Source: a virus. Taken from it: a DNA stretch of 48,484 nucleotides. Position numbers and translations under genes: made by a program. Below the pieces are notes generated by a model. The model ran no database searches and had not been told where the DNA came from. It was given only the letters and a program-made list of their open reading frames with translations. The stretch lies in IMG/VR virus record IMGVR_UViG_3300023118_000010, positions 1 through 48,484 of that record, one strand, 5' to 3'. Positions 2,819 to 48,121 of the stretch are shown in pieces; the first letter of the stretch is position 1, and each line of letters opens with the position of its first letter.

Positions 2819-3018
2819 TGCCGATCGCGATCGTAAAGACCACCACCGTCATCTGCGAGAACGCAGACCGATCCGCCGTCCACATCGCCGGCACCGGATC
2901 CGGCCTGTCGCTCGAGTACTTCTTCGCGGCGGGGTGGACGGTCCTACCCGGCACGGACACGCGCCGCGCCGGCGTCGCCTACTGCCCGGCATGCACGAAA
3001 GCGATGGCCGGCACATGA
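2818..3018 (+). CDS. Small protein with C-terminal CPAC motif, 66 aa
   Basis: It starts at ATG within TGATG and ends in an ATGA overlap. The fold looks like a small beta domain with a CPAC pair near the C-terminus and a lone Cys at residue 13. Four-Cys zinc sites are common in such proteins, but only three Cys are present here. Function is unknown. Confidence 0.5.
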   Translation: MPIAIVKTTTVICENADRSAVHIAGTGSGLSLEYFFAAGWTVLPGTDTRRAGVAYCPACTKAMAGT

Positions 3019-3164
3019 ACCCCCGCCTGCCTTACCTGCTCCTGATGGCCCTCGCGTTCGCGACCATCATCGGCTGCCTCCTCGCCTCCAACGCCTTCCC
3101 GTTCCAGCACCCTGCGCCCACACCAACCCCCACCGTTACCCCGCTTCAACTCCCGACCCTCTAG
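3015..3164 (+). CDS. Single-pass membrane protein with Pro/Thr tail, 49 aa
   Basis: A hydrophobic helix (residues 6-25) is followed by a Pro/Thr-rich tail with repeated PT pairs. A cysteine lies at the end of the helix. It could be an exported, anchored peptide. It is coupled to the upstream gene by an ATGA overlap. No family is recognised. Confidence 0.45.
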   Translation: MNPRLPYLLLMALAFATIIGCLLASNAFPFQHPAPTPTPTVTPLQLPTL

Positions 3165-3173
3165 GAGCCCCCG

Positions 3174-4529
3174 ATGGCCAGAGCCAAAGTCCTACCGTCC
3201 GACCCCGCATTTCCGCACGGAACCTCGGGCGGTGTTGCTCGCGGATGCACCGACGAAGCAGCTTGCCCGGGCGACGAGAACGGGCGTACTTGCCGGCAGG
3301 CTAAGCGCGACTACGAGCGTGACTACCGGTCCAAGGCGGCCGGCGTGCCCTCCGATGGTGAGGCACCGGAAGGTGCTGCTTCGCCGGCGTTGAAGATGGC
3401 AGCGCCGACCACCGAGGGCTGGGAACCGATCGGCCATCTAGTACCAGATGAAGCCCCGGCGGCCATTGAGGGTAAGCAGGCGGCCGCCACACTCCAGGCG
3501 GAGCCCGCGCCGAAGCCGGCGCCGGCCAAGGTTGAAGGGCGTACCGCCGCGATTGGGGCAACACGACGCCTCCAGGCGCTCGCGTGGATGGGTTACACAC
3601 CCATCGAGCTGGCCCACCACACCCAGATCAGCGTCGACAACATCTGGTGCCTGCTGCTGTGCCCGCCCGACACCATCACCGACGTCACCCACCGAATCAT
3701 CCGCGACCGATTCCTGAAGTTGCGCGACCAGCCAAAGAACAAGAAGACCGGCGCTATCGGCTGGTCACACGCGAACGAGCGCATCATCATCCTCGCGGAA
3801 TCTCACGACTGGAAAGGCCCGTACGACTGGAACGACATCGACATCGATCCCAGCGCACCGAACGACTCCGGCCGCTCCCGCCGCGCCATGCTCGCAGACC
3901 AGGTAACCGCCCTCGAGGCCGAGCTCGTGTTCGCCCGGACCCGGATCTCCGAACTCGAGTCGGTCAACCCTGCCACCGGGACCGGATCTGACGGCGAGCA
4001 CGTCACCAAGCTCGAGGAAGAGATCACATCCTTGACGGAGGAGCTCTCCGATACGAAAGCCAAGTACAGCGAACTGCTCTCCAAGTCGCACGACGAGGCC
4101 GTGTCGATTGCGAGCAGGGCCGAAGCGAATCACCAGACCAAGGTCGCCGCGCTCGAGAGCACCATCCTCGATCTGCGCGAACGAGCTGCTCGACACGACC
4201 AGGGCGAGACCACCCGCACCGTGACACCTCACTCCGCGGCTGATCGCGCTACGGAACTCAACATCGCTCTCACCGACGCCGAGAACGAAGCGCTCCACTG
4301 GAAGCACCGCCACGACCAGGAAGCGGCTGCACGCGCACAAGCCGAGGACCGCCTCACCAAGATCTGGTTCCTTGCGACCCATACGGAGAGCTTTTCCAAC
4401 CCCGAGGCCGAGACCAGCGCCGAGCCCGAGGCCGACGATCAGCGACTCCGTTTGGTGGAGTCCCCGGTTGAAGACGGCTCCATCCATCTTCCCGCCGGCG
4501 TCACGGTCAACATCCACATCGGCAGGTAG
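3174..4529 (+). CDS. Large phage HTH protein with coiled coil
   Basis: A good ribosome binding site (AGGAG at 3163-3167) precedes the ATG. Residues 1-60 hold a Cys-containing segment like that of the actinophage-type protein at 2081 (CTDEAACPGDENGRTC). Residues 125-225 contain the shared region TRRLQALAWMGYTPIELA and the WNDIDIDPSAP motif. Residues 235-395 form long heptad-like helices rich in Glu, Leu and Lys, consistent with a coiled coil. It looks like the paralogue at 2081 with its C-terminal HTH replaced by a coiled coil, perhaps for multimerisation. Role is unknown; position suggests early regulation or DNA metabolism. Confidence 0.65.
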   Translation: MARAKVLPSDPAFPHGTSGGVARGCTDEAACPGDENGRTCRQAKRDYERDYRSKAAGVPSDGEAPEGAASPALKMAAPTTEGWEPIGHLVPDEAPAAIEGKQAAATLQAEPAPKPAPAKVEGRTAAIGATRRLQALAWMGYTPIELAHHTQISVDNIWCLLLCPPDTITDVTHRIIRDRFLKLRDQPKNKKTGAIGWSHANERIIILAESHDWKGPYDWNDIDIDPSAPNDSGRSRRAMLADQVTALEAELVFARTRISELESVNPATGTGSDGEHVTKLEEEITSLTEELSDTKAKYSELLSKSHDEAVSIASRAEANHQTKVAALESTILDLRERAARHDQGETTRTVTPHSAADRATELNIALTDAENEALHWKHRHDQEAAARAQAEDRLTKIWFLATHTESFSNPEAETSAEPEADDQRLRLVESPVEDGSIHLPAGVTVNIHIGR

Positions 4530-4535
4530 CACACC

Positions 4536-4793
4536 ATGTCCCAATTCATACCCGAGGGCGACCTGCTCCCAGAGCCACTCGTCACCGTCATCCTCGACAA
4601 CCGTGCTGCGCCCGTTCGCCGCTCGGCCGTCTACATGGACCGCTGGACAATCCGGAAGCTCAATGGCCTGTGGGTCGCCTGGCCGACCGACGCTGGCGTG
4701 TACGTCGACGTCCTACGCCGACAGCAATGGATCACGCGCACAGCCTTCGCGGCCGCTCTCAGGTACGTCCTGGGAAAGGTGTACGCCCGATGA
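4536..4793 (+). CDS. Unknown small protein, 85 aa
   Basis: The gene lies six bases after its neighbour and overlaps the replication initiator by four bases (ATGA). The sequence contains alternating hydrophobic strands and a Trp-rich middle (DRWTIRKLNGLWVAWPTD), typical of a small beta-rich domain. No family is recognised. Confidence 0.55.
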   Translation: MSQFIPEGDLLPEPLVTVILDNRAAPVRRSAVYMDRWTIRKLNGLWVAWPTDAGVYVDVLRRQQWITRTAFAAALRYVLGKVYAR

Positions 4794-5596
4794 GCATCCG
4801 CCACCTCATCGCCGCCATGGAACTCCAGTGGCTCTACGAAGAGCACGAGACCGAAGACGGCCGTCCCGTGAAGCTCTCACCGTCCCACAAGCTCGCGCTC
4901 GCCGCGGTCGCCGACGACGCGTCCGACAAGACCGATCACTCGTTCCCGGGCCTGGAGAAGGTGCAGAAGTGGGCGGGCGTTGGCAAGCGTCGCGCCTTGG
5001 AACTCATCCAGGATTTAAATGCAGCGACGTATCTCGAATCAATCGCCGCGGGCTTCCCCGGTAAGCGTGCGGTGTACAAGGTCAACATCCCGAAGCCCGG
5101 CGCGATCGCTTCGGCTGAAATGGCGCCCGAGCCTGTGGATAACTCCCAAATAATGGGTGCGGAATCTCGCACTCCCCAAATAATGGGTGCGGAGATTCGC
5201 GAAATCGCGCGAGATCTCGCACCCCTCTCCTTAGACCCTCTCCTGATTAAACAATCACCTAGGAGAACAACCACAGAGTCTGTGGATAACTCCCGCGTCG
5301 GTGACGACCGGGATTCAGATTCACCCAAGCTGGGGCTGCTCGCCCGGCGCCGGCAGCGCAAGATCGGCCGGGAGCTCGACCACAACCGGATCTTCACTCA
5401 CGCGGCGACGATGCTCGCCGACATCCCCGAGGTCGACCGTCGCCGCATCGCGACGATGCTCGCCTACGCCGTCTTGGCGTTCCCCGCAGCGAAGGGCGAG
5501 TCGGTCACGGCGCCGACCGCGTACGTGCTCCGAGCCTTCGAGAACGACCCGTTCTTCTGGCAGAAGCGCGGCATGGATATGTGGGCCGAAGCATGA
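4790..5596 (+). CDS. Replication initiator-like wHTH protein
   Basis: Residues 29-80 form a winged helix of the HTH_36 type (SHKLALAAVADDASD ... FPGLEKVQKWAGVGKRRALELIQDL), which in phages marks RepA/DnaD-like replication proteins. Residues 113-190 are a low-complexity linker of lower GC that encodes two PQIMGAE/SQIMGAE repeats and VDNS repeats. The C-terminal region (200-268) is helical and basic, perhaps loading the host helicase. The linker DNA holds two perfect DnaA boxes, iteron-like repeats and an inverted repeat, so the gene likely contains its own origin, as in lambda gene O. The 268-residue length fits this family. Confidence 0.75.
   Translation: MSIRHLIAAMELQWLYEEHETEDGRPVKLSPSHKLALAAVADDASDKTDHSFPGLEKVQKWAGVGKRRALELIQDLNAATYLESIAAGFPGKRAVYKVNIPKPGAIASAEMAPEPVDNSQIMGAESRTPQIMGAEIREIARDLAPLSLDPLLIKQSPRRTTTESVDNSRVGDDRDSDSPKLGLLARRRQRKIGRELDHNRIFTHAATMLADIPEVDRRRIATMLAYAVLAFPAAKGESVTAPTAYVLRAFENDPFFWQKRGMDMWAEA
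5134..5294 (+). other. Probable phage replication origin inside the initiator gene
   Basis: Two perfect DnaA boxes (TGTGGATAA at 5134-5142 and 5281-5289; each continues as CTCCC) flank a region clearly richer in A+T than the surroundings. Between them are two identical 13-bp iterons CCCAAATAATGGG at 5145-5157 and 5175-5187, exactly 30 bp apart and each a small dyad. There is also an imperfect inverted repeat at about 5185-5224 (GGGTGCG to CGCACCC ends) and an A/T-rich stretch near 5240-5260. This combination is a classical initiator plus DnaA origin layout. The function is inferred from layout. Confidence 0.7.
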
Positions 5597-30926: not shown

Positions 30927-33437
30927 ATGGCGGGTCCCGGCGGGAAGTCAGTAGGTCGCGTATCCATCCGCGTCGTGCCGAACTCGAGCAGGTTCAAGGA
31001 GGACCTGAAGAAGACGCTGCAGCGCATTGAGAACAGCACTGTGCTCAACGTGCCCATGGCGGTCGACACCCGCCAGGCGCAGCTCGACCTGAAGCGCTTC
31101 CAGAAGAAGTGGAACGGCGAGTCGATCTCCTTCGACGTCGACGCCAAAACGCTCGGCGCAGCGGCTCACATGAAGGAGTTCACCCGCCGGCGCACCATCC
31201 CGATCAGCATCAACGTCTCGAAGGCATCGCTCGCCAAGGCAGCGACCCTCATCGCGTCGCTCTCGGGCGCGCGCCTCCTCGGTGACATCGGTAAAGACAT
31301 CGGCGACAAGCTGATGAACCTCGACCGCGCCCTGCCGAAACTCGCCGCCGTGGCGCTCGGCGTAGGCGCGATCGGCGCCGCAGGCATCTCTTCCGTCGGA
31401 GGCCTGTTCACTGTCGCAGCGGGACTGGCGTCGATCGGGGGAGCGGGCCTAGCGGCCCCCGCGATCGTCGGCGGCCTCGCTGTCGGCATCACCACGCTCG
31501 TCGTCGCTCTCAAGGACGCACCCAAGCAGCTCGCTGCCCTCGGCCCCTCGATCCGCGGCCTCCAGACAATCATCAACGACAAGTTCTGGGCAGGCGCTCG
31601 CAAACCCATCATCGACCTCACCAGGTCCGTGCTGCCCGACCTCCGCAAGGGGTTCGCCAACACGGCCTCCGAGCTCGGCGGCTGGGCTGCAAGCCTCGCC
31701 TCCGGATTCAAGACGGCGCTCGGCGGCGGCGTCCTCACCGGGTTATTCAACAACCTGAACCAGTCGATCACGATCGCCTCTGGTGGCACCGGTGCATTCG
31801 CATCGACCATCGTCACACTCGGCACGGTCGGTGGCACCTACCTGCCGAAGCTCGCGACGTGGATCTCCGAGATCGCGACGCAGTTCAACAACTTCGTGCA
31901 GGGCGCTGCCGCCGATGGCCGTCTGGTCCAGTGGATCGACGGCGGCATCGCGGCGCTCGGTCAGCTCGGTTCATCCGTCGGCTCGATCTTCTCGATCATC
32001 AACGGGATCAACACCGCGGCGCAGGCAGCCGGCGGCGGCGGACTGGCTGTTCTGGCAACCACGCTCGCAGCGGTCGCTGAGATCGTCAACGGGCCGGCAT
32101 TCCAGTCGACCCTGTCGACGATCTTCGCCGGCGCCGCCGCCGGCGCTGAGGGCCTGGCGAATGCGGTGGGTCCGATCGGGGCCATGTTCACGGCGCTCGC
32201 GCCGACGATCGCCAACGTCATGGCCACATCGGGCCAGGTAGTCGGCAACCTTCTCGGGCAGATCGCCAGCGCGATCGCTCAGCCTGCTTTCGCTACTGGT
32301 CTCACAGCGTTCTTCGACGGTCTCCAGCAGGGCCTCCTAGCGATCGGCCCGGCTCTGCCTGCCGTGGCAGCTGCCCTCGGCACCTTGGGCAGTTTCGTAG
32401 GGGCCCTGGCTGCCCAGCTCGGACCGGTTCTCGGTACGGCGCTGGGTCTGATCGCCCCGATCCTGTCCGAGCTTCTCGCTCAGATCCAGCCCCTGCTGCC
32501 TCTGCTCGGTGACGCACTGGTGGGCGCACTGTCGTCGATCCTGCCCGTGGTGGGCACGCTCATCTCGACGCTGCTGCCCCCACTCGTCTCGCTGATCGCC
32601 GCGATCATCCCCGTCATTCAGCCCGTCCTCGATGCACTTCTGCCGCTGATCACGACGCTGCTGCCGCCCCTGATGGAGATCATCCAGGCGCTCATCCCCG
32701 CGCTCATTCCGATCATCGGTCTGATCGCCCCGCTCGTTCAGCTGCTGGCCGCCATTCTGGTGCCGACCATCCAGATGCTCGTTCTGGGGATGCAGCCCGT
32801 GCTCGCGCTCCTGAAGATCCTCACTCCCGTGATTCAGATCGTCGCGACAGTGATCGGCGCCCTGGCCGACATCATCACGACGGTGCTGCTCGCCGCGTTC
32901 AAGGCGTTCGGGCAGCTGCTCCGAGGCGACTTCTCCGGTGCGATCAAGACGATGTCCGACGCTTTCTCCGGTGTCGGCGACATCGTCAAGAAGGCCTTCT
33001 CATCGATGATCGGCTTCGCGCTGAACGGTGCGAACTCGATCATCGACGTGATCAACGGCATCATCTCCGGCGTCGCATCTATCGCCTCCGGCCTGAAGAA
33101 CCTGACCGGCGGCGCGATCGACATCAAGCTGGCGAAAATCCCACACCTGAACGTGCCGAAACTCGCACTCGGCGCCGACATCCTCCCCACCAGCGGGGGC
33201 GTTATCGCGCGGCTCGCTGAGGCCGGAAGGCGGGAGCGCGTCATCGACGCCGGCCTCGGTAACCGCAACCTCGAGCTGCAGAACAGGCTCCTGGACCAGG
33301 CAACCGCGCGGGGTGGTGCGGGAACGACACACATCGACGCACCCATGACGGTAATTGTTCGTCCGGAGGATGACGCGCGCCTCGTAGGTCGTCAGGCCGG
33401 CCGCGAGTTCTTGAGCACGATCGCGGGAGACATCTGA
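30927..33437 (+). CDS. Tape measure protein
   Basis: The longest gene of the window (836 codons) follows the chaperones. The product has a basic start, long hydrophobic Gly/Ala/Ile-rich segments (about 130-200 and 440-640) and amphipathic helices, the typical tape measure composition. By the usual rule of roughly 1.5 angstrom per residue a tail of about 120-130 nm would be expected. No lysozyme or peptidase motif was seen. GGGAGG precedes the ATG. Confidence 0.88.
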   Translation: MAGPGGKSVGRVSIRVVPNSSRFKEDLKKTLQRIENSTVLNVPMAVDTRQAQLDLKRFQKKWNGESISFDVDAKTLGAAAHMKEFTRRRTIPISINVSKASLAKAATLIASLSGARLLGDIGKDIGDKLMNLDRALPKLAAVALGVGAIGAAGISSVGGLFTVAAGLASIGGAGLAAPAIVGGLAVGITTLVVALKDAPKQLAALGPSIRGLQTIINDKFWAGARKPIIDLTRSVLPDLRKGFANTASELGGWAASLASGFKTALGGGVLTGLFNNLNQSITIASGGTGAFASTIVTLGTVGGTYLPKLATWISEIATQFNNFVQGAAADGRLVQWIDGGIAALGQLGSSVGSIFSIINGINTAAQAAGGGGLAVLATTLAAVAEIVNGPAFQSTLSTIFAGAAAGAEGLANAVGPIGAMFTALAPTIANVMATSGQVVGNLLGQIASAIAQPAFATGLTAFFDGLQQGLLAIGPALPAVAAALGTLGSFVGALAAQLGPVLGTALGLIAPILSELLAQIQPLLPLLGDALVGALSSILPVVGTLISTLLPPLVSLIAAIIPVIQPVLDALLPLITTLLPPLMEIIQALIPALIPIIGLIAPLVQLLAAILVPTIQMLVLGMQPVLALLKILTPVIQIVATVIGALADIITTVLLAAFKAFGQLLRGDFSGAIKTMSDAFSGVGDIVKKAFSSMIGFALNGANSIIDVINGIISGVASIASGLKNLTGGAIDIKLAKIPHLNVPKLALGADILPTSGGVIARLAEAGRRERVIDAGLGNRNLELQNRLLDQATARGGAGTTHIDAPMTVIVRPEDDARLVGRQAGREFLSTIAGDI

Positions 33438-34291
33438 TGCCAGTCCTGACAGTCGGCTCCCTCCCGTTCTCTGGTGACACCAGCGGGCGGGAGGGTTTCC
33501 ACTACAACAAACTCACCGGCTGGTTCGACCTCACGGACTCCAAGTCCGACGTCAACGAGCGCCCGCAAGCGCACGGCGCCTTCGGAATCTCTCAGGACTG
33601 GCGCACCTCCGCGGCAATCTCGTTCCACGGCTGGTTCTCAGCCAGTACGCGGGCCGAAGTGATCGCCGCCAAGAACGCACTGAACGGGGCGCTGGGCGAC
33701 GGCAAGCCGAAAATCATGACGCTCACCGACGTCGACGGGACAACCTCCCGTGTGGTGTCTGTCCGATACGTGAAGCCGAACGACAACAGGGCGACTCTCG
33801 CCTTCGAGTTCGACGTCGACGTGATAGCACCGGATCCGCTCCGATACGGCCCGGAGGTGCCCGTGGTCGCCGACGTCCCGGTAGCCACCGGCGGACTCAT
33901 CATGCCTCTCGGCGCCGGCGCCGCCATCATCGATTTCGGCACTGGTGGAGCAAGCGGCCGCGTCGCCGTCACCAACCCAGGAACCGCGCCGACGTCACCA
34001 GCGATCGAAGTGACCGGCGGACTCGAGCTCGGCTTCGTAATCACCGATACCACAAGCAACCGGGTCATTCGATTCGAGCGCCAGATCCCGCTCGGTTCCA
34101 CCGTCTACATCAACCAGCGCACCGGTCGGGCCTATCTCGACAACGCGGCCTCTGACGTCTCGGGCTTTCTCACCTCCAGAGGGCTATTCGAGATCGGCCC
34201 CGGTGAAACCCACCAGATCCAGTTCCAGCCGCTCGGCGCTGTCACGGGTGCGCCGCAGATGACGCTGCTCACCGCGGCCGCCTACCTCTAG
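33437..34291 (+). CDS. Distal tail protein (Dit-like)
   Basis: The 284-residue protein overlaps the tape measure by TGATG. Its N-terminal half resembles the Dit ring domain (HGAFGISQDWRTSAAISFHGWF, VRYVKPNDNRATLAFEFDVDVIAPDPLRYG). The C-terminal half is a galectin-like beta region, as in long Dit proteins. It would join the tail tube to the tip. Confidence 0.75.
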   Translation: MPVLTVGSLPFSGDTSGREGFHYNKLTGWFDLTDSKSDVNERPQAHGAFGISQDWRTSAAISFHGWFSASTRAEVIAAKNALNGALGDGKPKIMTLTDVDGTTSRVVSVRYVKPNDNRATLAFEFDVDVIAPDPLRYGPEVPVVADVPVATGGLIMPLGAGAAIIDFGTGGASGRVAVTNPGTAPTSPAIEVTGGLELGFVITDTTSNRVIRFERQIPLGSTVYINQRTGRAYLDNAASDVSGFLTSRGLFEIGPGETHQIQFQPLGAVTGAPQMTLLTAAAYL

Positions 34292-34300
34292 GAGAAATCG

Positions 34301-35488
34301 ATGACGCTTCGAAAGGGATTCGGCGCGGAGCTCGCGCTCCCACACGCCAACGATCTCCGACTGGATATGGCCGGCATGGTCGTCCGCAACGCAGCAGGCG
34401 TTCCGCGCGGCGGGATCTTCCCGCCGGCCGCGACGAACCTGCTGAGCGCCACGGCGAGCATGAACGTCGCCGTGGCCGCGTTCTCCGGGGTGGCGGTTCG
34501 CGATGGCGGAGTGGTCTTCTTGGCGAACGACGGCCCGGTGAACGTTCTGCTGCCTAACCCGCCGAGCTCGAACTCTGCGCTCCATGTGGTCTGGGCCAAG
34601 CAGAACGACTCGAGCTCCTACGTCACCACCCCCGACGCTGACAACAACGCTGTGTTCGGGGTTCTTGCCGGTGCATCAGCACCAATCCCCGTCCGAAACC
34701 CTGCAGGTCTTCCGGCCGGCGCCATCGAACTCGGTACTGTCCTGGTGCCGTCGACGGCGACGAACACCGGCTCGAGCGGTGTCATCTTTACACCGACCTA
34801 CCTGTACACGGCCATGGCCGGTGGAAAGGTGTGGTTCCGAAACGGGACCGAGCGCGACGCGTTCGTCGGCATCGACGGGCAGCCAGGCTACGTGATGGCC
34901 GAGAATGGCGATTATGTCTCGAAGGGCGGCGCGTGGAAGCGCGCTTCCTCCGGGATGGTGATGATCGCGCCCACCGTCTCAGGCTCCGGAGCATCGGTCG
35001 TCGGATCGACCATCGCCCTCTCGCAGACAGTCGCGGGAACGATCGACATCACAGGCCTGCCATCCGATTTCGATCACTACCGAATCGAGATTGTCGGAAC
35101 CGCCGGCGTAGCGGGTTCGGCCATGAACCTGCAGCTTCTCGTCGGCGGCGCGCCCCAGGGCGGGACCGCGTACTACCAGGCCTACGTGGTAACACTAAAC
35201 GGGTCGGCCCCAGTCGGGGGAACGTTCGTCGCCCTGCCGCAGTTCCAGCTTTCTCAGGGCACCGGCGGCCCAGTGGATGTCGAGTCCACCACGGACTTGT
35301 TCAATTTGACGACGGCGCTGCGCACGAACATGAAGGGCACGTCGGGGGTCTTCGTACCAGCCTCGGGCGTCGCCGGAGTGTTCACCGTCTTCGGCGGACA
35401 CAACGTGGCCGTAGCCTGCGACGGAGTGCGGATCTCATCAACGGCGCCCTTCGTGGGCAAGATCTACGTCTTTGGCTACAACAAGTGA
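34301..35488 (+). CDS. Tail-tip/receptor-binding protein with switchable C-terminus
   Basis: The 395-residue protein has an N-terminal baseplate-attaching region (1-195) and a beta-rich C-terminal region (207-395) that probably binds the host. The junction AENGDYV (200-206) is encoded by 34898-34919, one arm of a 22-bp inverted repeat whose other arm lies in the same frame within a reversed alternative C-terminus (35500-35912). The end of this gene faces that cassette 11 bases away. Inversion would replace residues 207-395 by another domain of about 137 residues. GGAG precedes the ATG. Confidence 0.75.
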   Translation: MTLRKGFGAELALPHANDLRLDMAGMVVRNAAGVPRGGIFPPAATNLLSATASMNVAVAAFSGVAVRDGGVVFLANDGPVNVLLPNPPSSNSALHVVWAKQNDSSSYVTTPDADNNAVFGVLAGASAPIPVRNPAGLPAGAIELGTVLVPSTATNTGSSGVIFTPTYLYTAMAGGKVWFRNGTERDAFVGIDGQPGYVMAENGDYVSKGGAWKRASSGMVMIAPTVSGSGASVVGSTIALSQTVAGTIDITGLPSDFDHYRIEIVGTAGVAGSAMNLQLLVGGAPQGGTAYYQAYVVTLNGSAPVGGTFVALPQFQLSQGTGGPVDVESTTDLFNLTTALRTNMKGTSGVFVPASGVAGVFTVFGGHNVAVACDGVRISSTAPFVGKIYVFGYNK

Positions 35489-35934
35489 GCCCGGGCCCGT
35501 TACCACTCGCCTTCCACGAGTAGGCGCGACGCCCGAATGCCGTTGACGACCAAGGCGCCAAATGAGGCAGATGCTTGCAGCTGAATCGTGCAGTTTCCCG
35601 TTCCCGCGGCGATCTCAATAACGGCCATTGCCGCATACGACGCTCCCGAATTGGCAAGTGTCACGGTAGGGCCGCCCGCAAACAACACGCTCGCGCCGGT
35701 TCCAGTGGCGAGGATGTTCACGCCACCAGTAGTTCCCCCGGTCGTGTTAGCGATCGATGCAGTGATGGTGATGATGACTCGCTGCTTGAACCCCGGCGCC
35801 CGCGGAACGACCAGACTGTCGAAGATCGTTCCTGATGCTCCGGAGAAGGAGATCGCCGCGTCGAACTCGCGTTTTCCGCCGATGGGCGTCCAGTTCGCGA
35901 GTGCGGCCTTATAGACATAATCGCCATTCTCGGC
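34898..35934. repeat. Invertible segment bounded by 22-bp inverted repeats
   Basis: The arms 34898-34919 and 35913-35934 are perfect inverted copies (beginning GCCGAGAATGGCG and ending TATGTCT); allowing two mismatches the match extends to 28 bp. Both arms are read in the same codon phase (AENGDYV). Inside are two C-terminal coding segments that converge. A terminator at 35978-35998 lies outside and can serve either orientation. No serine or tyrosine invertase gene is adjacent. Confidence 0.75.
35500..35934 (-). pseudogene. Silent alternative C-terminus of the tail-tip protein
   Basis: On the minus strand the frame from the repeat arm onward reads AENGDYVYKAALANWTP, then a beta-rich domain (RVIITITASIANTTGG, VTLANSGASYAAMAVIEIAAG, RLLVEGEW) and stops at 35500. 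It has no ribosome binding site, and the frame upstream of the repeat comes from terminator DNA, so it is not a complete gene. It looks like a stored receptor-binding domain that becomes expressed when the segment inverts, giving a tip protein of about 343 residues. Confidence 0.72.
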
Positions 35935-35977
35935 GCAATTTTGGCGCGCAGCGCCCCGCTTCCAACCTACCCACCAC

Positions 35978-35998
35978 GCCCCGCACCCGCGGGGCTTT
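35978..35998 (+). terminator. Terminator after the tail-tip locus
   Basis: GCCCCGC (35978-35984), loop ACCC, GCGGGGC (35989-35995), then TTTCGCATTT. A 7-bp perfect GC stem with a partial T tract. It lies outside the invertible segment, so it ends tail-tip transcription in both orientations. Confidence 0.7.
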
Positions 35999-36017
35999 CG
36001 CATTTAAGGAGCACCCC

Positions 36018-36137
36018 ATGGCACCGACCGAACCAACAGAGGCCGAGATCCTCGCCCAGCAGGAAGCGCACCTCGACTCCGAGGAACTGCGCATGGGCGA
36101 CCCGCTCGCCGCCGAGCTCACTGGAGACGACCAGTGA
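36018..36137 (+). CDS. Small acidic protein, 39 aa
   Basis: AAGGAG seven bases before the ATG is a strong ribosome binding site. The product is short, acidic and helical (EAEILAQQEAHLDSEELRMGD). It overlaps the endolysin start by GTG. Function unknown; it may serve translational coupling to the lysin. Confidence 0.5.
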   Translation: MAPTEPTEAEILAQQEAHLDSEELRMGDPLAAELTGDDQ

Positions 36138-37174
36138 CCCCCGCAGTCGAGTGGAAGGGCTCCCCGAACTTCTACCCGCAGACGAACGTCGCGAAGCTCT
36201 TCGCGACGCTGCACTGGATGGTCGGAACCCTGCGCAGCACCGACCAGGTGTTCGCCTCTAGCACTCGCAAGGCATCCGCCACCTACGGAGTCGGACCGTC
36301 TGGGATCCACCAGTACGTGGCTGAGAAGGACTACCCGTTCTCCGACGGCAACACGTACGCCAACCAGCACACGATCTCGATCGAGCACGAGGGCGGATAC
36401 CTCGACGGCAACGGCAACCGAGTCAGCCCCTCTCGCGCCACTCTCGACAACTCCGCAGCTCTGCTCGCCGACATCTCCCGCCGGCATGGCTGGGGTCCGC
36501 TCGTGTGGGGCAAGAACGTCTTCCCGCACAACCACTGGGTAGCGACGGCTTGCCCGGGCAGCACCGACTACGCCTACATCATCAACAAGGCCAACGAGCT
36601 CCTCGGTAACGGCGCACCGCCGCTCGCCGGCGTCGGTTCGGGATCCGCTTCTCCGCTCGGCTGGAACGCATCGTCCTGGTCGACCGCGCAGATCCAGACA
36701 GCGCTCATGCAACTCGGCTTCGACCTCGGCCCGACCGGCGCGGACAACGACTACGGACTGTTCACCACGAAGGCCGTGCGGGCATTCGAGGAGCAGCAGG
36801 GTCTCGCCGTCGACGTCGGTATCGCGGGCCCCCAGGTCGTCGGTCGCCTGGCGCAGCTCACGGGCGCCCCGGCACCGGTCGCGGCGTCGAACAAGCTCGT
36901 CGTCGACGGCAAGGAGGGCACGCTCACCATCAAGGCAGAGCAGCGTGCGCTCGGCGTCGACCCCGACGGCAAGCGCGGCAAGATCACAATCGGTGCCGAG
37001 CAGCTGCGCACGGGTGCTGGCCACGACGGCATCGACGGCCCGGACACCACCCGCCACCTGCAGCAGCGCCTGGAAAACCTCGGCTTCTCCGTCGGCCCCT
37101 CGGGCATCGACGGCCGCCGTGGGCCTGACACCATCCGTGCCCTCCAGCGCGCACTCAACGCGGGCACCTTCTGA
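36134..37174 (+). CDS. Endolysin: Amidase_2 with two peptidoglycan-binding repeats
   Basis: Residues 15-150 match the N-acetylmuramoyl-L-alanine amidase (Amidase_2) fold: LHWMVG with His27, a SIEHEGG segment, and HNHWVATACPG with His and Cys zinc ligands. Residues 175-235 are a PG_binding_1 repeat (AQIQTALMQLGFDLGPTG, TTKAVRAFEEQQGL), and residues 290-346 a second one (LQQRLENLGFSVGPSG, PDTIRALQRALNAG). The enzyme cuts the amide between muramic acid and the stem peptide at lysis. Its place between tail genes, with the small membrane protein after it, is typical of actinophages. Confidence 0.88.
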   Translation: MTPAVEWKGSPNFYPQTNVAKLFATLHWMVGTLRSTDQVFASSTRKASATYGVGPSGIHQYVAEKDYPFSDGNTYANQHTISIEHEGGYLDGNGNRVSPSRATLDNSAALLADISRRHGWGPLVWGKNVFPHNHWVATACPGSTDYAYIINKANELLGNGAPPLAGVGSGSASPLGWNASSWSTAQIQTALMQLGFDLGPTGADNDYGLFTTKAVRAFEEQQGLAVDVGIAGPQVVGRLAQLTGAPAPVAASNKLVVDGKEGTLTIKAEQRALGVDPDGKRGKITIGAEQLRTGAGHDGIDGPDTTRHLQQRLENLGFSVGPSGIDGRRGPDTIRALQRALNAGTF

Positions 37175-37309: not shown

Positions 37310-38524
37310 GTGACGGAGTACTTCATCGGCAACCTGCTCACCGGTCGACGCCTCCAAACTCTGCCGGTGATGACCGGACCCTGGTCAGACCAGATCCACG
37401 TAGCAGAGACCATCACCGTCACCGTCGACCTCAACGACGCCGACGTGCGCGATCTCGACCTCGACAGCTCCGCAGCTCCCGCACAGTCGTTCCTCGCCGT
37501 CCGGGAGAACGGCCGCATCGTGGCGGCCGGCCCGATCTGGACGAGCGTCTACGACCGGCCGAAGCGCACTCTCACCCTCCGTGCCGCCGGCATGGCCTCT
37601 CTCTTCAACCACCGTCTGATCCTCCCCGTCCTCGCCGCGACCATCGGCGTGGACCAGTGGACAGTCCCCGACCCAGCGGATCCGACGAAGACGATGCCAA
37701 ACCCGGCGCTCGCCACAGTCTTCAGCGGCATCAGCCTTGGAACGATGGCGAAGCGCCTGGTGCAGCAGGCCCGTACCTGGACTGGTGGCAACGTGCCCAT
37801 CGAATTCCAGCCAGACGAGGCGGCCGCTCGAACGAAGACCTACGACGCGGTGAACTTCAAACCCGTGTGGGAAGCCTGCACCGACATCATGAACATGGAC
37901 GATGGCCCGGAGATCAACTTCCAGGCGCTCGACACCGACGATCTCCTCGGCGTGAAGTGGCTCATGGAGACCGGCACGGTTGCCGAGCCGCTCATCACGT
38001 CGACGTCGATCGTCGATTGGGACCTCACTGCGAAGGAAAGCCCGATCTCGGACTTCCAGATCACCACCGATGCCACCAAGATGGGCTCCCTCGCATGGCA
38101 AACCGGCGGTGCGCAGAACAGCACAGTTGTAGTGTCGCGCGCCTATGACCCGACATTGGTCTCTGCCGGCTACCCGCTGATGGAACTGTCCGACTCTTCG
38201 CACAGCACCGTCGACCGACAGGACACTCTCGATGACTACGCGACAGCCGACGTCATCGCTGGCCGACGTGCCGTCGAAGTCTGGTCGTTCTCGGTGAAGG
38301 CCTATCCAACAGACCAGCTCGGCAACCCCGCCGGACCGCAGGTAGGGGACTACCAGGTCGGTGACTTCTGCAACATCCACATCGACGCGTTCGACCCGAA
38401 AGCGCTCACCGGCGATCCGTTCAAGCACGCAGGAGGGGACTTCCCCATGAGGATCATCGGCATCTCGGGCGACGAGAAAGGCATCGACCTGAAGATCGAT
38501 CTCGCACCAGCGCTGGTCGCCTGA
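37310..38524 (+). CDS. Minor tail protein (tail hub/Gp37-like)
   Basis: The 404-residue protein begins YFIGNLLTGRRLQTLPVM, then a VTVDLNDADVRDLDL segment and PIWTSVYDRPKRTLTLRAAGMASLFNHRLI. This is the pattern of Siphovirus Gp37-like minor tail proteins in actinophages, where the first domain resembles the gp27/hub ring. GGAG precedes the GTG start. It is coupled to the next tail gene by TGATG. Confidence 0.72.
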   Translation: MTEYFIGNLLTGRRLQTLPVMTGPWSDQIHVAETITVTVDLNDADVRDLDLDSSAAPAQSFLAVRENGRIVAAGPIWTSVYDRPKRTLTLRAAGMASLFNHRLILPVLAATIGVDQWTVPDPADPTKTMPNPALATVFSGISLGTMAKRLVQQARTWTGGNVPIEFQPDEAAARTKTYDAVNFKPVWEACTDIMNMDDGPEINFQALDTDDLLGVKWLMETGTVAEPLITSTSIVDWDLTAKESPISDFQITTDATKMGSLAWQTGGAQNSTVVVSRAYDPTLVSAGYPLMELSDSSHSTVDRQDTLDDYATADVIAGRRAVEVWSFSVKAYPTDQLGNPAGPQVGDYQVGDFCNIHIDAFDPKALTGDPFKHAGGDFPMRIIGISGDEKGIDLKIDLAPALVA

Positions 38525-40346: not shown

Positions 40347-41000
40347 ATGACCGGACAGGCACCCACTCCCGACGAACTGATTGAGGCTGAAAAGCCCCAT
40401 CGTGTTCCGCTGCGAATCCAGGCAGCCTTAGTTCTCGTGATCACGCTGCTGATGATCATCGCGGTCGTCATCGGCGCCGGCGTGAACTTCAGCCAGTCTC
40501 GCGTCATCGGGCAGCAACAGTCTCTGATCGCCGACCTCAGCCACAACCTTGACGCCACACGAGACCAGGTCAAAGCCAGTGGCGAAACCCCCGTGTCACC
40601 GCCTGCATCCGTCGTCGCCGGCGCCGCGGGAGATCCGGGCAAGGCAGGCACCAATGGCATCGATGGTCGTGACGGCACGTCCGTCATCAGCGTGATCTGC
40701 CAGGCCTCCGGGTCGTGGTTGATCACCTACAGCAATGGCAGCTCGCAGCAAGCCACTGGCCCCTGTATCGGAGCGAACGGCGCCGACGGTCAAACCATCA
40801 CCGGTCCGCCTGGCAAAGACGGCACCAACGGGAGCAACGGCGCGAACGGCGCTGACGGTCGAGACGGCACAGACGGAGCCCCCGGCGAGCCGCCGTTCTC
40901 CTGGACGTGGGTCAGCACGTCCGGACTCTCCCGTACCTGCAACCGCACCGAGCCGTTCGACAAGACAGCACCCACCTACACCTGCACGACAACACCATGA
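40347..41000 (+). CDS. Membrane-anchored collagen-like protein
   Basis: Residues 20-48 form a membrane helix; a short heptad region follows (QQQSLIADLSHNLDATRDQV). Two collagen-like Gly-X-Y tracts (GDPGKAGTNGIDGRDG and later GPPGKDGTNGSNGANGADGRDGTDGAPGEPP) surround a small domain with two Cys. The C-terminus again has two Cys. Collagen-like repeats are common in phage fibres, but the membrane anchor is unusual and suggests a cell-surface protein of the host made during infection or lysogeny. Phage structural use is the alternative. Confidence 0.65.
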   Translation: MTGQAPTPDELIEAEKPHRVPLRIQAALVLVITLLMIIAVVIGAGVNFSQSRVIGQQQSLIADLSHNLDATRDQVKASGETPVSPPASVVAGAAGDPGKAGTNGIDGRDGTSVISVICQASGSWLITYSNGSSQQATGPCIGANGADGQTITGPPGKDGTNGSNGANGADGRDGTDGAPGEPPFSWTWVSTSGLSRTCNRTEPFDKTAPTYTCTTTP

Positions 41001-42494: not shown

Positions 42495-43922
42495 GTGACC
42501 GTCTACAACTTCCCCTCCAACCTCCCGCTGACGCCTGCAGGCAGCAACGACGACCAGAACAAAGCGAGCCTGGTGCTCGGAACCGTCGTTCACTCGACGT
42601 CAGCCGGGATTCAAGCGACGGGCGTCCGATTCTGGGTCCCGGCCATCGGCGTGGGCGAGACGATCCGCGGATATCTGTTCGCCGGCGTCTCTGGTTCGAC
42701 CTTGCTCGCCTCGTCGGCCGCGGTCGCTGCGGTGTCGGGCTGGAACACGCTCCCTTTCACGACCCCGTACACGCTGACATCGGGAGTCGACGTCACTGCG
42801 GCCGTCTACATTCTGGCGCTGTCGAGCCACGTCTACTACCCTGCGGTCGCTAGTGTCCTCGCCAGCGCACAGACTGTCTCACCGATGCAGACTGTGGCGA
42901 CAGCATCGCGGTACAACTACGGCAACGCTTCACCGAATCTCGCGATCAGCGGCGGGGACGACTTCGGCAGCTCGTCAGCCTGGTACGGCGTCGACGTCAT
43001 CGCATCCGATGGATCAGGGCCCGCAGGGACAGCGTCGCTGTCTGGCTCTGGCACCCTGACGACCGCAGGCAAGAAGTCGGCCGCGGCGTCGCTCGCTCTA
43101 TCGGGATCCGGGTCGTTGTCGGCCAGCGGCAAGATCGCCTTCCTCCGACCGGCGACACTCGCCGGCGGAGGGACACTCGGCGCCGTCGCTGCTCCGGCCA
43201 ATTCGACGGCTGCGGTGTTCGCATCTTCCGGCACCTTGACCGCATCGGCTGCCGCAACCGGCTCTGGCACGCTCTCCGGCGATGGCACGCTCTCCGGCGC
43301 ACCGACGTCACAGACCGCCGTCTCTGCGTCCCTGGCCGGTTCGGGCTCGCTCGCAGCGGCACCCGCCGCCCGCACCACCGCGGCCGCGCCTCTGGGAGGC
43401 TCCGGGGCGCTGACCGCGGCGAGCACCGCCCGAGTTCCGGCCATGCCGATACTCGGCGGTGCTGGCGCTCTCGCAGCCCAAGGCGCGCCGTCTCCGACCG
43501 TGCCAGCCGCTCTATCAGGCGTCGGCCTGCTGAGTGCTGGCGCTCCATCGAGCGGGCAGGCGACACTGACCGGTGGCGGCTCGGTCGCCGCGACGCCGAT
43601 CGCTCGTGTGCTCGCGGCCGCGACGTTGAGTGGGGCCGGCATTGTGTCTGCGGGAGCACGTTCCGGAGCGAGTTCGGCAGTGTCCTTCGCCGGTGGCGGA
43701 GATCTCGTCTCCATCACCGCAGCGTGGGCTGCAGTCCTGGTGGCACTCGCTGGGTCGGGAAATCTCGTCCCAGCAGCACCACGTCCGCCGGGTCGTGACA
43801 TCACAATCGTTGTTGGTTCTCCGCATGGCAGCCAACTGCGAGCCGGCGCGCCTGTAGGCCACCCGCTGGGGTCTGGTCTCCCGTTATCCAATCCGTTCCG
43901 TGCTGGCTCACCTTGGAGGTAG
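42495..43922 (+). CDS. Repeat-containing tail fibre/appendage protein
   Basis: The first 170 residues form a jelly-roll-like domain (VRFWVPAIGVGETIRGYLFAGVSG ... AAVYILALSSHVYYP, as in DUF4082). Residues 175-435 are about twelve copies of a 20-22 residue repeat with core L-S-G-S-G-x-L-x-A followed by an Ala/Pro spacer. The last 40 residues are polar and Gly/Pro-rich. GGAGGGG before the GTG is a strong ribosome binding site. It probably forms an extended appendage. The repeats vary in DNA sequence, so they are old. Confidence 0.65.
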   Translation: MTVYNFPSNLPLTPAGSNDDQNKASLVLGTVVHSTSAGIQATGVRFWVPAIGVGETIRGYLFAGVSGSTLLASSAAVAAVSGWNTLPFTTPYTLTSGVDVTAAVYILALSSHVYYPAVASVLASAQTVSPMQTVATASRYNYGNASPNLAISGGDDFGSSSAWYGVDVIASDGSGPAGTASLSGSGTLTTAGKKSAAASLALSGSGSLSASGKIAFLRPATLAGGGTLGAVAAPANSTAAVFASSGTLTASAAATGSGTLSGDGTLSGAPTSQTAVSASLAGSGSLAAAPAARTTAAAPLGGSGALTAASTARVPAMPILGGAGALAAQGAPSPTVPAALSGVGLLSAGAPSSGQATLTGGGSVAATPIARVLAAATLSGAGIVSAGARSGASSAVSFAGGGDLVSITAAWAAVLVALAGSGNLVPAAPRPPGRDITIVVGSPHGSQLRAGAPVGHPLGSGLPLSNPFRAGSPWR

Positions 43923-43925
43923 TCG

Positions 43926-44207
43926 ATGGCATCCCTTCGTCGTGCTGGTCGCGAGTACTTCCATTGGCCCCTGACGAACGTTCCGGCTGACGTCTCTGCC
44001 CTCGAGGTCCTCCTCGAGGGAGGGTGGCATCCGCTCGAGCTCGCCGCGGACCGCCTCAGCGCTCGATGCCTTGTCCAAGGCCCCGACGTTGCGGTGATCG
44101 ACGTAAGCGCTGTGACAATCACGAGCGATCAGAGCAGCATCGAGCTGCGCGTCAGTGACGATCCTGAGATCGTGATCCGCGGCGGAGGCGAGATACGCCT
44201 CATTTGA
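43926..44207 (+). CDS. Unknown protein, 93 aa, last late gene
   Basis: GGAGG before the ATG. A small beta-rich protein (ALEVLLEGGWHPLELA, VAVIDVSAVTITSDQSSIELRVSDDPEIVIRGG) that may accompany the fibre upstream. It ends directly before a strong terminator. Confidence 0.55.
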   Translation: MASLRRAGREYFHWPLTNVPADVSALEVLLEGGWHPLELAADRLSARCLVQGPDVAVIDVSAVTITSDQSSIELRVSDDPEIVIRGGGEIRLI

Positions 44208-44210
44208 ACG

Positions 44211-44264
44211 ACGACGAATGGCCCCGGCCGCCCACTCACGTGGGCGGTCGGGGCCATTCGTCGT
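44211..44264. terminator. Bidirectional terminator between convergent genes
   Basis: Bases 44211-44235 pair with 44240-44264 to form a 25-bp stem with one mismatch and a TCAC loop. TT follows on the plus strand. It separates the late operon from the reversed gene whose stop codon begins at 44265-44267, and should stop transcription from both sides. Confidence 0.8.
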
Positions 44265-44537
44265 TTAAGGAGCCTCGTCGACGGGAGAGCTCGGGTTGGC
44301 CTTCACCCACATCTGCCATGTCAGCCACGCCGCCGTCTCCATATCGGGGAAGTATCCGATGAGGGCGCGGTCCTCGGACCGCTCCGCCCAGGTCACGACG
44401 CGGATGAGCTTCGTGCGCTTAGGTCCGATGACAACCGGGAGCAGCACGGCGATCTTTCGGCTCCGGTCGAACATCAGATACTCGCCAGGGCGCACACTGC
44501 GCTGCAGTGCACGCATCGGCGTCCACGTGTGGGCCAA
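44265..44537 (-). CDS. Unknown protein, 90 aa, reversed
   Basis: The reversed protein has a mixed alpha/beta pattern: PGEYLMFDRSRKIAVLLPVVIGPKRTKLIRVVTWAE, then GYFPDMETAAWLTWQMWVKA. Not recognised. Lying in the lysogeny side of the prophage against the late operon, it may be expressed in the lysogen. Confidence 0.5.
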   Translation of the reverse strand: MAHTWTPMRALQRSVRPGEYLMFDRSRKIAVLLPVVIGPKRTKLIRVVTWAERSEDRALIGYFPDMETAAWLTWQMWVKANPSSPVDEAP

Positions 44538-44830: not shown

Positions 44831-45310
44831 ATGGCTCACGTAACCACCGGCTGCCGGGACTGCAAGAAGTGCACCAACAGCGGCGTAGCGAACCTGGGTC
44901 GCAACTCCGGCCGCGCCGGCGCCGCAGTGCTGACCCTCGGCCTCAGCGAAGCGGTTATGGCAGCCACAAAGAACTGCCGGATCTGCGGTCACAAGCTCTC
45001 GCTCCATTCCGGCGTCGACGAGGTCCTTGCGGCGCAGGACAGGCGAGCTGATCGGGCCGCCTCGAAGAACCCGCCAGCAGGCTGGTTCCCTGAGACCACC
45101 AGCCGGCGCACCCGCTGGTGGGACGGCATGGCGTGGGGCCCCTACAAGGAGGACTGGGACCGCGAGCAGGCGACCGCGCTCGCCGCGACCGCGCCGGCGG
45201 CCCCAGCTGGTGTCGCGGCCGAGCTGCAGCGGCTCGGTGAGATGCACTCCGCCGGCCTGCTCACCGAGGCCGAATTCGCCGCAGCAAAGACGTCCGTGCT
45301 CGGCCTCTAA
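44831..45310 (+). CDS. Zinc, DUF2510 and SHOCT domain protein
   Basis: Three modules can be read in 159 residues. An N-terminal Cys domain (CRDCKKC, then CRICGHKL) with a hydrophobic Gly/Ala stretch between. A DUF2510 motif at about 92-117 (AGWFPETTSRRTRWWDGMAWGP). A C-terminal SHOCT helix pair (AAELQRLGEMHSAGLLTEAEFAAAK). DUF2510 and SHOCT commonly occur in actinobacterial membrane-associated proteins. Its stop overlaps that of the convergent integrase gene. It is probably a lysogenic or accessory gene. Confidence 0.65.
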   Translation: MAHVTTGCRDCKKCTNSGVANLGRNSGRAGAAVLTLGLSEAVMAATKNCRICGHKLSLHSGVDEVLAAQDRRADRAASKNPPAGWFPETTSRRTRWWDGMAWGPYKEDWDREQATALAATAPAAPAGVAAELQRLGEMHSAGLLTEAEFAAAKTSVLGL

Positions 45311-46311
45311 GCGGCGTCGCGTTTCGGCCCTCGAGCGCCGCCCGCGTGAGCAACCTTCGTCACACGCGGCAACGCCTGGAGCGCAGCATCCCACTGGTCG
45401 TCGTCGAGCAGGGTGTAGATCTGCGTCGTCGCTACGGACTCGTGGCCCATCATGTCTTTGATCTGTAGCAGCGGCACTTTCGCCTTGGCGAGGTTCGTAC
45501 CGAAGGTGTGGCGTGTGGAGTGGCCGGTGAGGCGGCTGTCGTCAATGCCGGCAGCGTCGATGCGCCGGGCGAGCACGTCGCCCAGAGACTTCCCGAGGAT
45601 GTGTCCGCCGCCGTTCGGAAAGGCCTTGTTCTTGTACGGCGAGGGGAACCACCAGCCGCGACGCGGATACTGGCGCGCGAGCTCGAGGACCTCCGGGTGC
45701 AGCTTGAGGGTGTGCTCCTTGTTGCCCTTGCGAATCGAGGTGAGCGTCCCCGCCTCCCAGTCGATGTCTTCACCGCGGATCTTCACTACCTCGCTCACCC
45801 GAAGTCCCGTGTGCACGAGGATCAGAATCAGGTCCCGGGTGCGCTTGTACGATCCCGACTCCATGAGGGCGTCCACCTGGTCGGCGCGAAATGGTCGCGG
45901 CTTGCGCTTGGGCACCCTGATCGACTCGAGCGACTCCGCCGGGTCATCGGATCGGTAGCCGTTGACGCGCGCCCAGCGGAAGAATGTCCGCAGGTAGCTG
46001 CGGTTCGATTCCTTCGTCGACGGCAGGATCTCCCGTCCCGTGCGCGGATGCGCCCGGGTCAGGAACTGCAGTAGGTCGTCGTGCGTGATCTGCTCAATCG
46101 ACTTCCCTGTCTGAGCAGCGAGCAGCAGTATGCATTCCTCGCGATTGCGTATCGTCTTCCGGGCCATGTTCTTGGCCCGTTGGCTTGTGGCGTATGCCCC
46201 CATGATGAATCCCCATTCCATGGGGCCAGACTGTAGGCGAGTAACGCTCGCCCTATTTTCCGGTATACCGGTCCCCGGGAAGGGGATGACGTTACTCGAC
46301 CAGGAGTTCAT
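45307..46311 (-). CDS. Tyrosine integrase
   Basis: The 334-residue enzyme has all catalytic landmarks of tyrosine recombinases: Arg171 (HTGLRVSE), a Lys in the beta hairpin (near 195), His264-x-x-Arg267 (GHSTRHTFGT), GH at 289-290 and the nucleophile Tyr299 (TTQIYTLL). A core-binding SAM-like domain precedes (about 40-125). It catalyses exchange between attP and the tRNA-Lys attB. The start ATG at 46311 overlaps the upstream small gene by 20 bases. In the integrated state no promoter of its own is evident; in circular phage it would be the third gene after the repressor. Confidence 0.9.
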   Translation of the reverse strand: MNSWSSNVIPFPGTGIPENRASVTRLQSGPMEWGFIMGAYATSQRAKNMARKTIRNREECILLLAAQTGKSIEQITHDDLLQFLTRAHPRTGREILPSTKESNRSYLRTFFRWARVNGYRSDDPAESLESIRVPKRKPRPFRADQVDALMESGSYKRTRDLILILVHTGLRVSEVVKIRGEDIDWEAGTLTSIRKGNKEHTLKLHPEVLELARQYPRRGWWFPSPYKNKAFPNGGGHILGKSLGDVLARRIDAAGIDDSRLTGHSTRHTFGTNLAKAKVPLLQIKDMMGHESVATTQIYTLLDDDQWDAALQALPRVTKVAHAGGARGPKRDAA

Positions 46312-46549
46312 CGCGGCGCGCCCCCACACCTGAAGCCAGGGCCCGCCGGCGCCGAGACACGTCGTCGACGCCCGCCCGCAATGCGGCCCGGGCGCGATCG
46401 CGCGCCGCGCGGTAGCGACCGAGCTCTTCCTGGTGGAAGTGGCCACCGTCGACGATCTGATCTGCCAGAATCCGCGCGAGCCTGTCCCGCTCCTCAGCGG
46501 TCACCGGAACGGCATCTATCGCGGTGAGCGGACCCAGTTGCTCCGCCAT
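46292..46549 (-). CDS. Small charged protein between att site and integrase, 85 aa
   Basis: The product is helical and very rich in Arg, Ala and Glu (TAEERDRLARILADQIVDGG, EELGRYRAARDRARAALRAG). Its ATG shares its A with the TGA of the severed repressor 3' part (TGATG), and its end overlaps integrase by 20 bases. It is coupled to both. It might act with the integrase or as a small regulator. Not recognised. Confidence 0.6.
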   Translation of the reverse strand: MAEQLGPLTAIDAVPVTAEERDRLARILADQIVDGGHFHQEELGRYRAARDRARAALRAGVDDVSRRRRALASGVGARRDELLVE

Positions 46550-46747
46550 CAGATGACCTCGCGTTCGCCAAAGAGATCGACGATCGGCGCCATACCGGCG
46601 TGAACGCTGTGGCGCTTCACGATGCCATGCAGCGGTGTGATCGGCGCGACATGGTCGTCCTCATGTGCGGACGCGAGGCGCTCTCCTATGGCCGAAACGT
46701 CGCCCTTATAATCCGTGGGTCGTCGGTTCGAGCCCGACGGGGCCCAC
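46549..46747 (-). other. Severed 3' part of the phage-form repressor gene
   Basis: Joining the two att copies as in circular phage, the repressor frame passes the core without stopping: the prophage TAA (90-88) becomes TAT (46710-46708). It continues for 53 codons (YKGDVSAIGERL ... IVDLFGEREVI) to TGA at 46551-46549, which overlaps the next gene start. About 74 percent of these codons end in G or C, as in neighbouring genes. In the prophage the frame upstream of attR is closed by TAG at 46770-46768 without a start codon. The phage-form repressor would be 149 residues. Confidence 0.7.
46709..46747 (+). repeat. attR core (39 bp)
   Basis: This is identical to 89-127. The 5' half of a tRNA is missing to its left, so it is not a second tRNA gene. 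To the right follows host DNA that would naturally continue from tRNA-Lys. Confidence 0.95.
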
Positions 46748-47424: not shown

Positions 47425-47437
47425 CATTGACTCAATG
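47425..47437. promoter_or_regulatory. Probable ArsR operator at the start codon
   Basis: CATTGACTCAATG is a perfect 13-bp palindrome covering the ATG of the ArsR-like gene at 47435. TTGACG (47399-47404) lies upstream as a possible -35. A dyad at the start of its own gene is the usual place for ArsR autoregulation. Confidence 0.55.
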
Positions 47438-48121
47438 TCTACTGACCACAATGACGAGCTGATGGCGAGGGCCGCGAAGCACGCGGCCCTCGCCGATCCC
47501 ACCCGCCTGGCGATCGTGGACCTGCTCGACCTCGGCGATCTGACCTCGACAGAGGTGGGCAGAATTCTCGGGGTTCCGTCGAACCTCCTCTCCCACCACC
47601 TGAGCGTGCTGGAAGGCGAAGGCATGCTGTCCCGCAGCCGCTCCGAGGCGGACCGTCGGCGCAACTACCTGCACCTCCTCCGCCCGACCGTCGACGGCAT
47701 CTATGTGAGCCGTACCCGGGCGGTCACCCGGGTTGTCTTCGTCTGCACGGCAAACTCCGCGCGCTCCCAGATCGCGGCCGCGCTCTGGCGTCGCAACAGC
47801 GACATCCCGGCGGAATCCGCGGGGACTCATCCCGCCGTACAGATCGCGGCAGGTGCGAACGACACTGCAGCGCGGCACGGCACCCCACTCGCATCCACCC
47901 GCCCACGACAGCTCACCGACGTGCTCGCCGACACCGATTTCGTGGTCACCGTGTGTGACAACGCACACGAGGAACTCGCCGACGTCGGCGACCTGCACTG
48001 GTCGGTGCCCGACCCGATCAGAGTGGGCACCCCCGAAGCATTCGACGCCGCCTACGACGAACTCTCCCAGCGCGTGAGCGACCTCGCGCCGCATCTCGTC
48101 CCCCTCGAACCGATCGGATAG
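47435..48121 (+). CDS. ArsR-type regulator fused to arsenate reductase-like phosphatase domain
   Basis: Residues 12-85 are an ArsR/SmtB winged helix (KHAALADPTRLAIVDLLDLGDLTSTEVGRILGVPSNLLSHHLSVLE). Residues 98-225 form a low-molecular-weight phosphatase fold: VVFVCTANSAR with the CX5R loop (Cys104, Arg110), ESAGTHP, and SVPDP carrying the general-acid Asp. The active-site loop is intact, so this part may reduce arsenate or bind it. The As-sensing Cys pair usual in ArsR is not evident. The gene is followed by arsC, which points to arsenic resistance. Confidence 0.85.
   Translation: MSTDHNDELMARAAKHAALADPTRLAIVDLLDLGDLTSTEVGRILGVPSNLLSHHLSVLEGEGMLSRSRSEADRRRNYLHLLRPTVDGIYVSRTRAVTRVVFVCTANSARSQIAAALWRRNSDIPAESAGTHPAVQIAAGANDTAARHGTPLASTRPRQLTDVLADTDFVVTVCDNAHEELADVGDLHWSVPDPIRVGTPEAFDAAYDELSQRVSDLAPHLVPLEPIG

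Follow-up and report, generated by a model that had tools for sequence, protein, structure and literature searches.

The 48,484-bp stretch of DNA analysed here (the window) represents an entire IMG/VR virus record and is a prophage of a soil-type actinobacterium. It is inserted in a tRNA-Lys(TTT) gene, its 39-bp att core occupying positions 89-127 and 46709-46747, and beyond the att site a host gene of the ArsR-ArsC fusion type is located (47435-48121), the best relatives of which are found in Microbacteriaceae (Lacisediminihabitans, 68%; Microbacterium, about 60%). The tail region includes in succession the tape measure gene (30927-33437, assigned by size and position), the distal tail protein gene (33437-34291), the tail-tip gene (ORF A; 34301-35488, plus strand, 395 aa), the endolysin gene (36134-37174), and the minor tail protein gene (37310-38524). 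Farther downstream a collagen-like tail protein gene (40347-41000) precedes the gene of a GSG-rich repetitive protein with an N-terminal DUF4082 domain (42495-43922), and a nearly perfect and very stable 26-bp hairpin (44210-44265; dG -58) lies directly 3' of a forward gene ending at 44207.

Within the tip gene the 22-bp sequence GCCGAGAATGGCGATTATGTCT is found at 34898-34919, and its exact reverse complement is located at 35913-35934; no other perfect inverted repeat of at least 18 bp exists in the window. These repeats bound a 1,037-bp segment with two convergent in-frame C-terminal halves of the tip protein. The constant N-terminal part (residues 1-199; 34301..34897, plus strand), which is assigned by its homologues and by PHROG 3398 (virion structural protein), continues into cassette A (34898..35488, plus strand), recorded in the expressed orientation as part of the 395-aa tip. 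Cassette B (35500..35934, minus strand) is silent and headless as recorded and would form the end of a 343-aa tip once inverted. The perfect repeat had been noticed in the original prediction, and the analysis confirmed it and added detail: the peptide AENGDYV is read in the same codon phase at both repeat copies, 11 bases separate the stop of A from that of B (which ends at 35500), no start can plausibly be assigned to the reversed frame, as the sole upstream ATG belongs to a hairpin outside the cassette, and inversion in silico results in an open tip of 343 aa, instead of 395 aa, with another C-terminus. The terminator postulated just outside the cassette is less certain, because a hairpin with a fold dG of -16.4 and a following short T tract (TTTCGCATTT) is indeed present at 35978..36000 (plus strand) as a possible terminator but was not called by a consensus terminator scan. 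The GC3 of cassette B is 0.69 against 0.57/0.56. Relatives of heads A and B were not detectable in phage records or viral contigs, where the opposite orientation of the window cassette was likewise unseen. It is highly probable that the window contains an invertible tail-tip cassette.

Homologues of the tip protein were identified in 138 phage records, among them those of Microbacterium, Arthrobacter, and Bifidobacterium phages. The AlphaFold model of the constant part resembles the receptor-binding protein (RBP) of lactococcal phage 1358 and Mtd of Bordetella phage with Z of about 8, a level at which a mere common arrangement can account for structural likeness, and the modelled residues 172-225 resemble the trimerisation knob of collagen XV/XVIII. 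Due to these two resemblances the crossover codons 200-206 may be placed at the joint of trunk and head. Inversion had also been expected to supply a different beta-rich domain; in this regard head B is predicted to be all-beta, with weak matches to the lambda gpJ tip and the Tuc2009 RBP head, but its model is of low confidence. The structure prediction for head A is of low confidence too. As the A and B heads would be exchanged in frame, the inversion probably changes host recognition.

The dif/Xer site is 28 bp long and is composed of an 11-bp XerC arm, a 6-bp centre, and an 11-bp XerD arm. Judged from its sequence, the 22-bp repeat is a dif-like Xer site, which goes beyond what had been recognised earlier. 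Both window copies, site 1 (34895..34922, plus strand; XerC arm ATGGCCGAGAA, centre TGGCGA, XerD arm TTATGTCTCGA) and site 2 (35910..35937, minus strand; TGCGCCGAGAA TGGCGA TTATGTCTATA), show the 11-6-11 spacing that matches the dif of the host clade. A published actinobacterial dif is that of Frankia (F. alni), CACGCCGATAATGCACATTATGTCAAGT (PMC3025954). Of 300 Microbacteriaceae genomes, 252 had a match to the pattern GCCGAKAATNNNNATTATGTC with at most one mismatch, mostly at one site per genome, and at the order level 73 of 94 genomes contained the dif pattern, while the reversed-pattern control gave zero matches in any listed Microbacteriaceae genome. Neither phage copy shows a mismatch to the dif pattern; in the window XerC arm a T that is invariant across 34 Microbacteriaceae dif sites is replaced by G. 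When all window positions on both strands were scored with a position weight matrix built from these 34 sites, site 2 ranked first (23.0) and site 1 second (16.7), the third score being 10.1 and the chromosomal sites scoring 28.6-40.0. The exact repeat corresponds to dif positions 4-25, that is, to the conserved core of the Microbacteriaceae dif, and the outer positions, which are variable among chromosomal sites, are also unlike between the two phage copies. If three mismatches are allowed, the window contains two dif matches against a shuffled mean of 0.03, and two such matches occurred in none of 100 dinucleotide shuffles; the repeat itself cannot be put down to chance.

The same arrangement was found in six sewage Bifidobacterium phages (BP677P1, P2, P3, P4, and P8, and BP742P1), where the BP677 series represents cultured phages and BP677P4 has B. 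pseudocatenulatum DA667 as its host. In this group a 25-bp perfect inverted repeat, GCCGATAATTGCGATTATGTCAGAA, is located at the homologous tip codon round two convergent heads, and the BP677-type inversion is in frame (321 vs 316 aa). The BP677 core arms are perfect dif arms with the private centre TTGCGA, and their full scores of 35.9 and 32.4 are within the chromosomal dif range, these sites being judged against the Microbacteriaceae dif. Two further phages, BA720P3 and BA746P1, possess an expressed head that is 56% identical to the silent BP677 head. Over 997 bp BA720P3 is colinear with BP677P4 only if the latter is inverted, not in its recorded form, which indicates that inversion at the tip locus has occurred in the Bifidobacterium phage lineage. 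The comparison with relatives, proposed in the original prediction as a check, thus revealed in BA720P3/BA746P1 the orientation opposite to that of the BP677-type phages. The pair BP677P1 and BP677P4 was rejected as evidence of switching: their N-terminal part is diverged and their cassettes are identical, and since this identity continues downstream, it represents a recombination tract.

Among about 100 tip homologues the repeat was present only in the window, in the BP677/BP742 phages, and in a Microbacteriaceae prophage (G274, contig C88), which is a third and weaker case. Here the repeat (AATGGCGATTACGTCTGGTCCGG) is 23 bp long and located at the same tip codon, and both orientations lead to long in-frame tips; however, with scores of 12.8 and 1.5 its sites resemble dif far less, the XerC arm of one of them is degenerate, and the XerD arm is TTACGTC. 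The G274 genome also contains an ordinary chromosomal dif. It encodes a XerD, which exceeds the curated cut-off, and a XerC-like protein, for which the best model is XerC with a score just under the cut-off.

From these sequences the locus is likely to be a reversible tail-tip (receptor-binding protein) switch that would be driven in trans by the host XerC/XerD. Site 1 in the tip gene would mark where the constant N-terminal/trimerisation part gives way to the C-terminal head, and the inverted site 2 would stand at the same codon of the alternative head, which is reversed and headless. In this model GCCGAKAA would be the binding sequence of XerC and TTATGTC that of XerD, and strand exchange would proceed within the 6-bp centre. 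As the two inverted Xer sites have equal centres and lie on the same molecule, XerC/XerD would be expected to invert the DNA between them, so that head B would replace head A in frame. Owing to the shared centre TGGCGA the two phage sites could recombine with each other, and since this centre is unlike TGCACA, the usual one of Microbacteriaceae sites (which stand here in place of the own host's dif), recombination with the chromosome should be poor. We infer the catalysis by XerC/XerD as well as the inversion frequency and the host-range effect. XerCD normally requires FtsK and the terminus region, which counts against the proposed Xer-driven switch. More generally, it seems moderately likely that Actinomycetota tailed phages, some of them with no site-specific recombinase that can be recognised as their own, vary their RBP via inverted private-centre dif copies flipped by the host XerC/XerD.

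The recombinase genes of the record bear on the choice of enzyme. No serine recombinase (PF00239) was found in the window, no dedicated invertase gene is encoded in the 48,484-bp record or adjoins the cassette, and the only PF00589 protein of the record is the phage tyrosine integrase (45307..46446, minus strand). The lack of a serine or dedicated invertase gene together with the dif-like sites implicates the host XerC/XerD. It is unlikely that the cassette is turned in trans by a different recombinase, such as a Rin-type tyrosine recombinase of the host or of another prophage, or the integrase of the window phage. Such an enzyme may be suggested by the tyrosine recombinase employed in the Rin shufflons of bifidoprophages (PMC6109161), by the integrase gene itself, and by the relative of BP677 cassette A in a Rin-type locus (L323), but the att core is unlike the repeat (11/22 matches; random mean 11.6), so that the integrase is not a likely invertase, and the Bifidobacterium phages with the same arrangement, where searched, have no integrase. 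In particular, both PF00589 and PF00239 are absent from the whole records of BP677P2/P3/P4/P8, BP742P1, BA720P3, and BA746P1, a search of seven Bifidobacterium phage records, five of them with the arrangement and BP677P1 left out. Also, the sites match dif and not rix (TTCCCTAACCC), which is absent from the window even with one mismatch allowed. The site of the tRNA-Met bifidoprophages, CAGGGTTA, occurs in the window once, at 2504, far from the cassette.

It is quite improbable that inversion is instead a rare result of homologous recombination or template switching at the 22-25 bp repeats, where the dif-likeness would be partly a coincidence and the repeat would be kept for its peptide motif or similar reasons. 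The motif ADNxDYV is indeed placed within a conserved trimerisation-type segment, the encoded A-D/E-N-x-D-Y-V itself favours dif-like DNA, and the G274 sites are poorly dif-like. In synonymous resampling of the encoded peptide, 556 of 200,000 draws (0.28%) reached the core score; according to this the peptide alone does not explain the dif-likeness, though it helps, the conditional chance of about 0.3% not being astronomically small. Against coincidence are the boundaries of the repeat, which are those of the dif core, the rarity in the window of the codons that make up the XerD arm (AAT, GAT, and TAT; 7, 18, and 8%), the perfect dif arms of BP677, and the existence of a second site, inverted and away from any gene start. 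Just as improbable is a frozen arrangement, left by a past inversion or module acquisition after which switching ended, since it would fit the single orientation of all six cassette-bearing Bifidobacterium records and the state of BA720P3, which has lost head A and retains, at the far boundary, a second site in decayed form, but not the identical repeat copies and the two open reading frames in every Bifidobacterium phage with both cassettes, nor the decay of the site once the cassette is gone.

The reading as an invertible receptor-binding cassette is well backed by the six Bifidobacterium phages, BA720P3/BA746P1, and G274. The parallel with Mu G, P1 C, and shufflons drawn in the original prediction applies to the way in which the cassette works, but not to its machinery, which has no serine or dedicated invertase and has dif-like sites. 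In Mu G, P1 C, and p15B Min a C-terminal tail-fibre segment with alternative reading frames is likewise invertible, as are the two in-frame alternatives of the window; however, a serine invertase (Gin/Cin/Min) is encoded beside the segment in these systems, and none is found in the window or in the seven Bifidobacterium phage records. According to Mavrich et al. (2018; PMC6109161), inversion in the Rin shufflon, which belongs to the dnaJ2 prophages of Bifidobacterium breve/longum, exchanges the C-terminal part of the RBP. It resembles the present case in its actinobacterial siphophage background, a constant RBP N-terminus related to the phage 1358 RBP, and shared cassette relatives, but differs in the tyrosine recombinase gene at its side, its several cassettes, and the 11-bp rix, whereas the window has only two cassettes, no adjoining recombinase (its sole PF00589 protein being the distant integrase), and dif-like sites. 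The locus L323 (OY725605.1, Siphoviridae sp. ctl617; 2900-5300) is a Rin-type shufflon with TTCCGTAACCC sites in both orientations and an adjoining annotated integrase, and one of its cassettes is related to BP677 head A.

In the tRNA-Met bifidoprophages 689b-1 and Bb423phi2 inversion takes place without a flanking recombinase, and an invertase acting in trans was proposed by the authors (PMC6109161). These prophages share with the window two alternative 3' ends and the lack of a flanking recombinase but differ in their 8-bp crossover, which is not dif-like and the enzyme for which is unidentified, while the window site itself points to XerC/XerD. The IMEX elements (CTXphi, VGJphi, TLCphi, and GGI) carry a dif-like site and integrate at the chromosomal dif in dependence on the host XerC/XerD (PMC5357621). 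The centre of VGJphi is unlike the host dif, as in the window sites; in contrast to IMEX, the window has two inverted sites within a tail gene, and the prophage is integrated not at dif but in tRNA-Lys, presumably via its own integrase. A parallel exists in Ureaplasma parvum, where the surface-protein locus mba is inverted at short inverted repeats by XerC, a recombinase of the host's own Xer family (PMC3599477), although this is a bacterial antigen gene and not a phage one, and the putative dif is bound by another recombinase (CodV). In the open full-text literature that was searched, Xer-driven inversion of a phage tail gene was not encountered; subscription journals are outside this scope, and priority is uncertain.

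Known tail-inversion switches have either their own invertase or an unknown enzyme. The novelty is on the enzyme side, which the original prediction left open with the mention of other sites and where the dif-like sequences point to the host XerC/XerD. If true, this would be a phage phase-variation system without any phage enzyme, in which the housekeeping XerC/XerD of the host are borrowed instead of an own switch enzyme. If these recombinases do act, phages without a recombinase could still vary their receptor-binding protein, a concrete candidate kind would be available for the trans-acting invertase proposed in bifidophage inversion, and switches of this kind could be sought in any genome with a simple pattern, namely dif pairs in inverted orientation whose centre differs from that of the host dif.

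In the scan of IMG/VR with exact dif patterns 34 loci were found, none of them with an inverted partner in the surrounding stretch. Single dif-like sites with similar centres in the Microbacteriaceae genomes G174, G400, and G042 were rejected, as no inverted partner or recognisable tail gene is located nearby; that of G174 (G174:C1:1223070-1223090) has a phage-type centre (GCCGACAATGGCGATTATGTC) and exists beside the usual dif of the genome. In two other genomes (G260:C129:2531-2597 and G298:C198:6535-6602) the chromosomal dif is accompanied at about 46 bp by a degenerate dif-like site in the opposite orientation. Finally, in G146 (C18/C23) and G139 (C9/C10) dif-like sites are located at the extreme contig ends, as if they belonged to plasmid-repeated modules (pdif-like).
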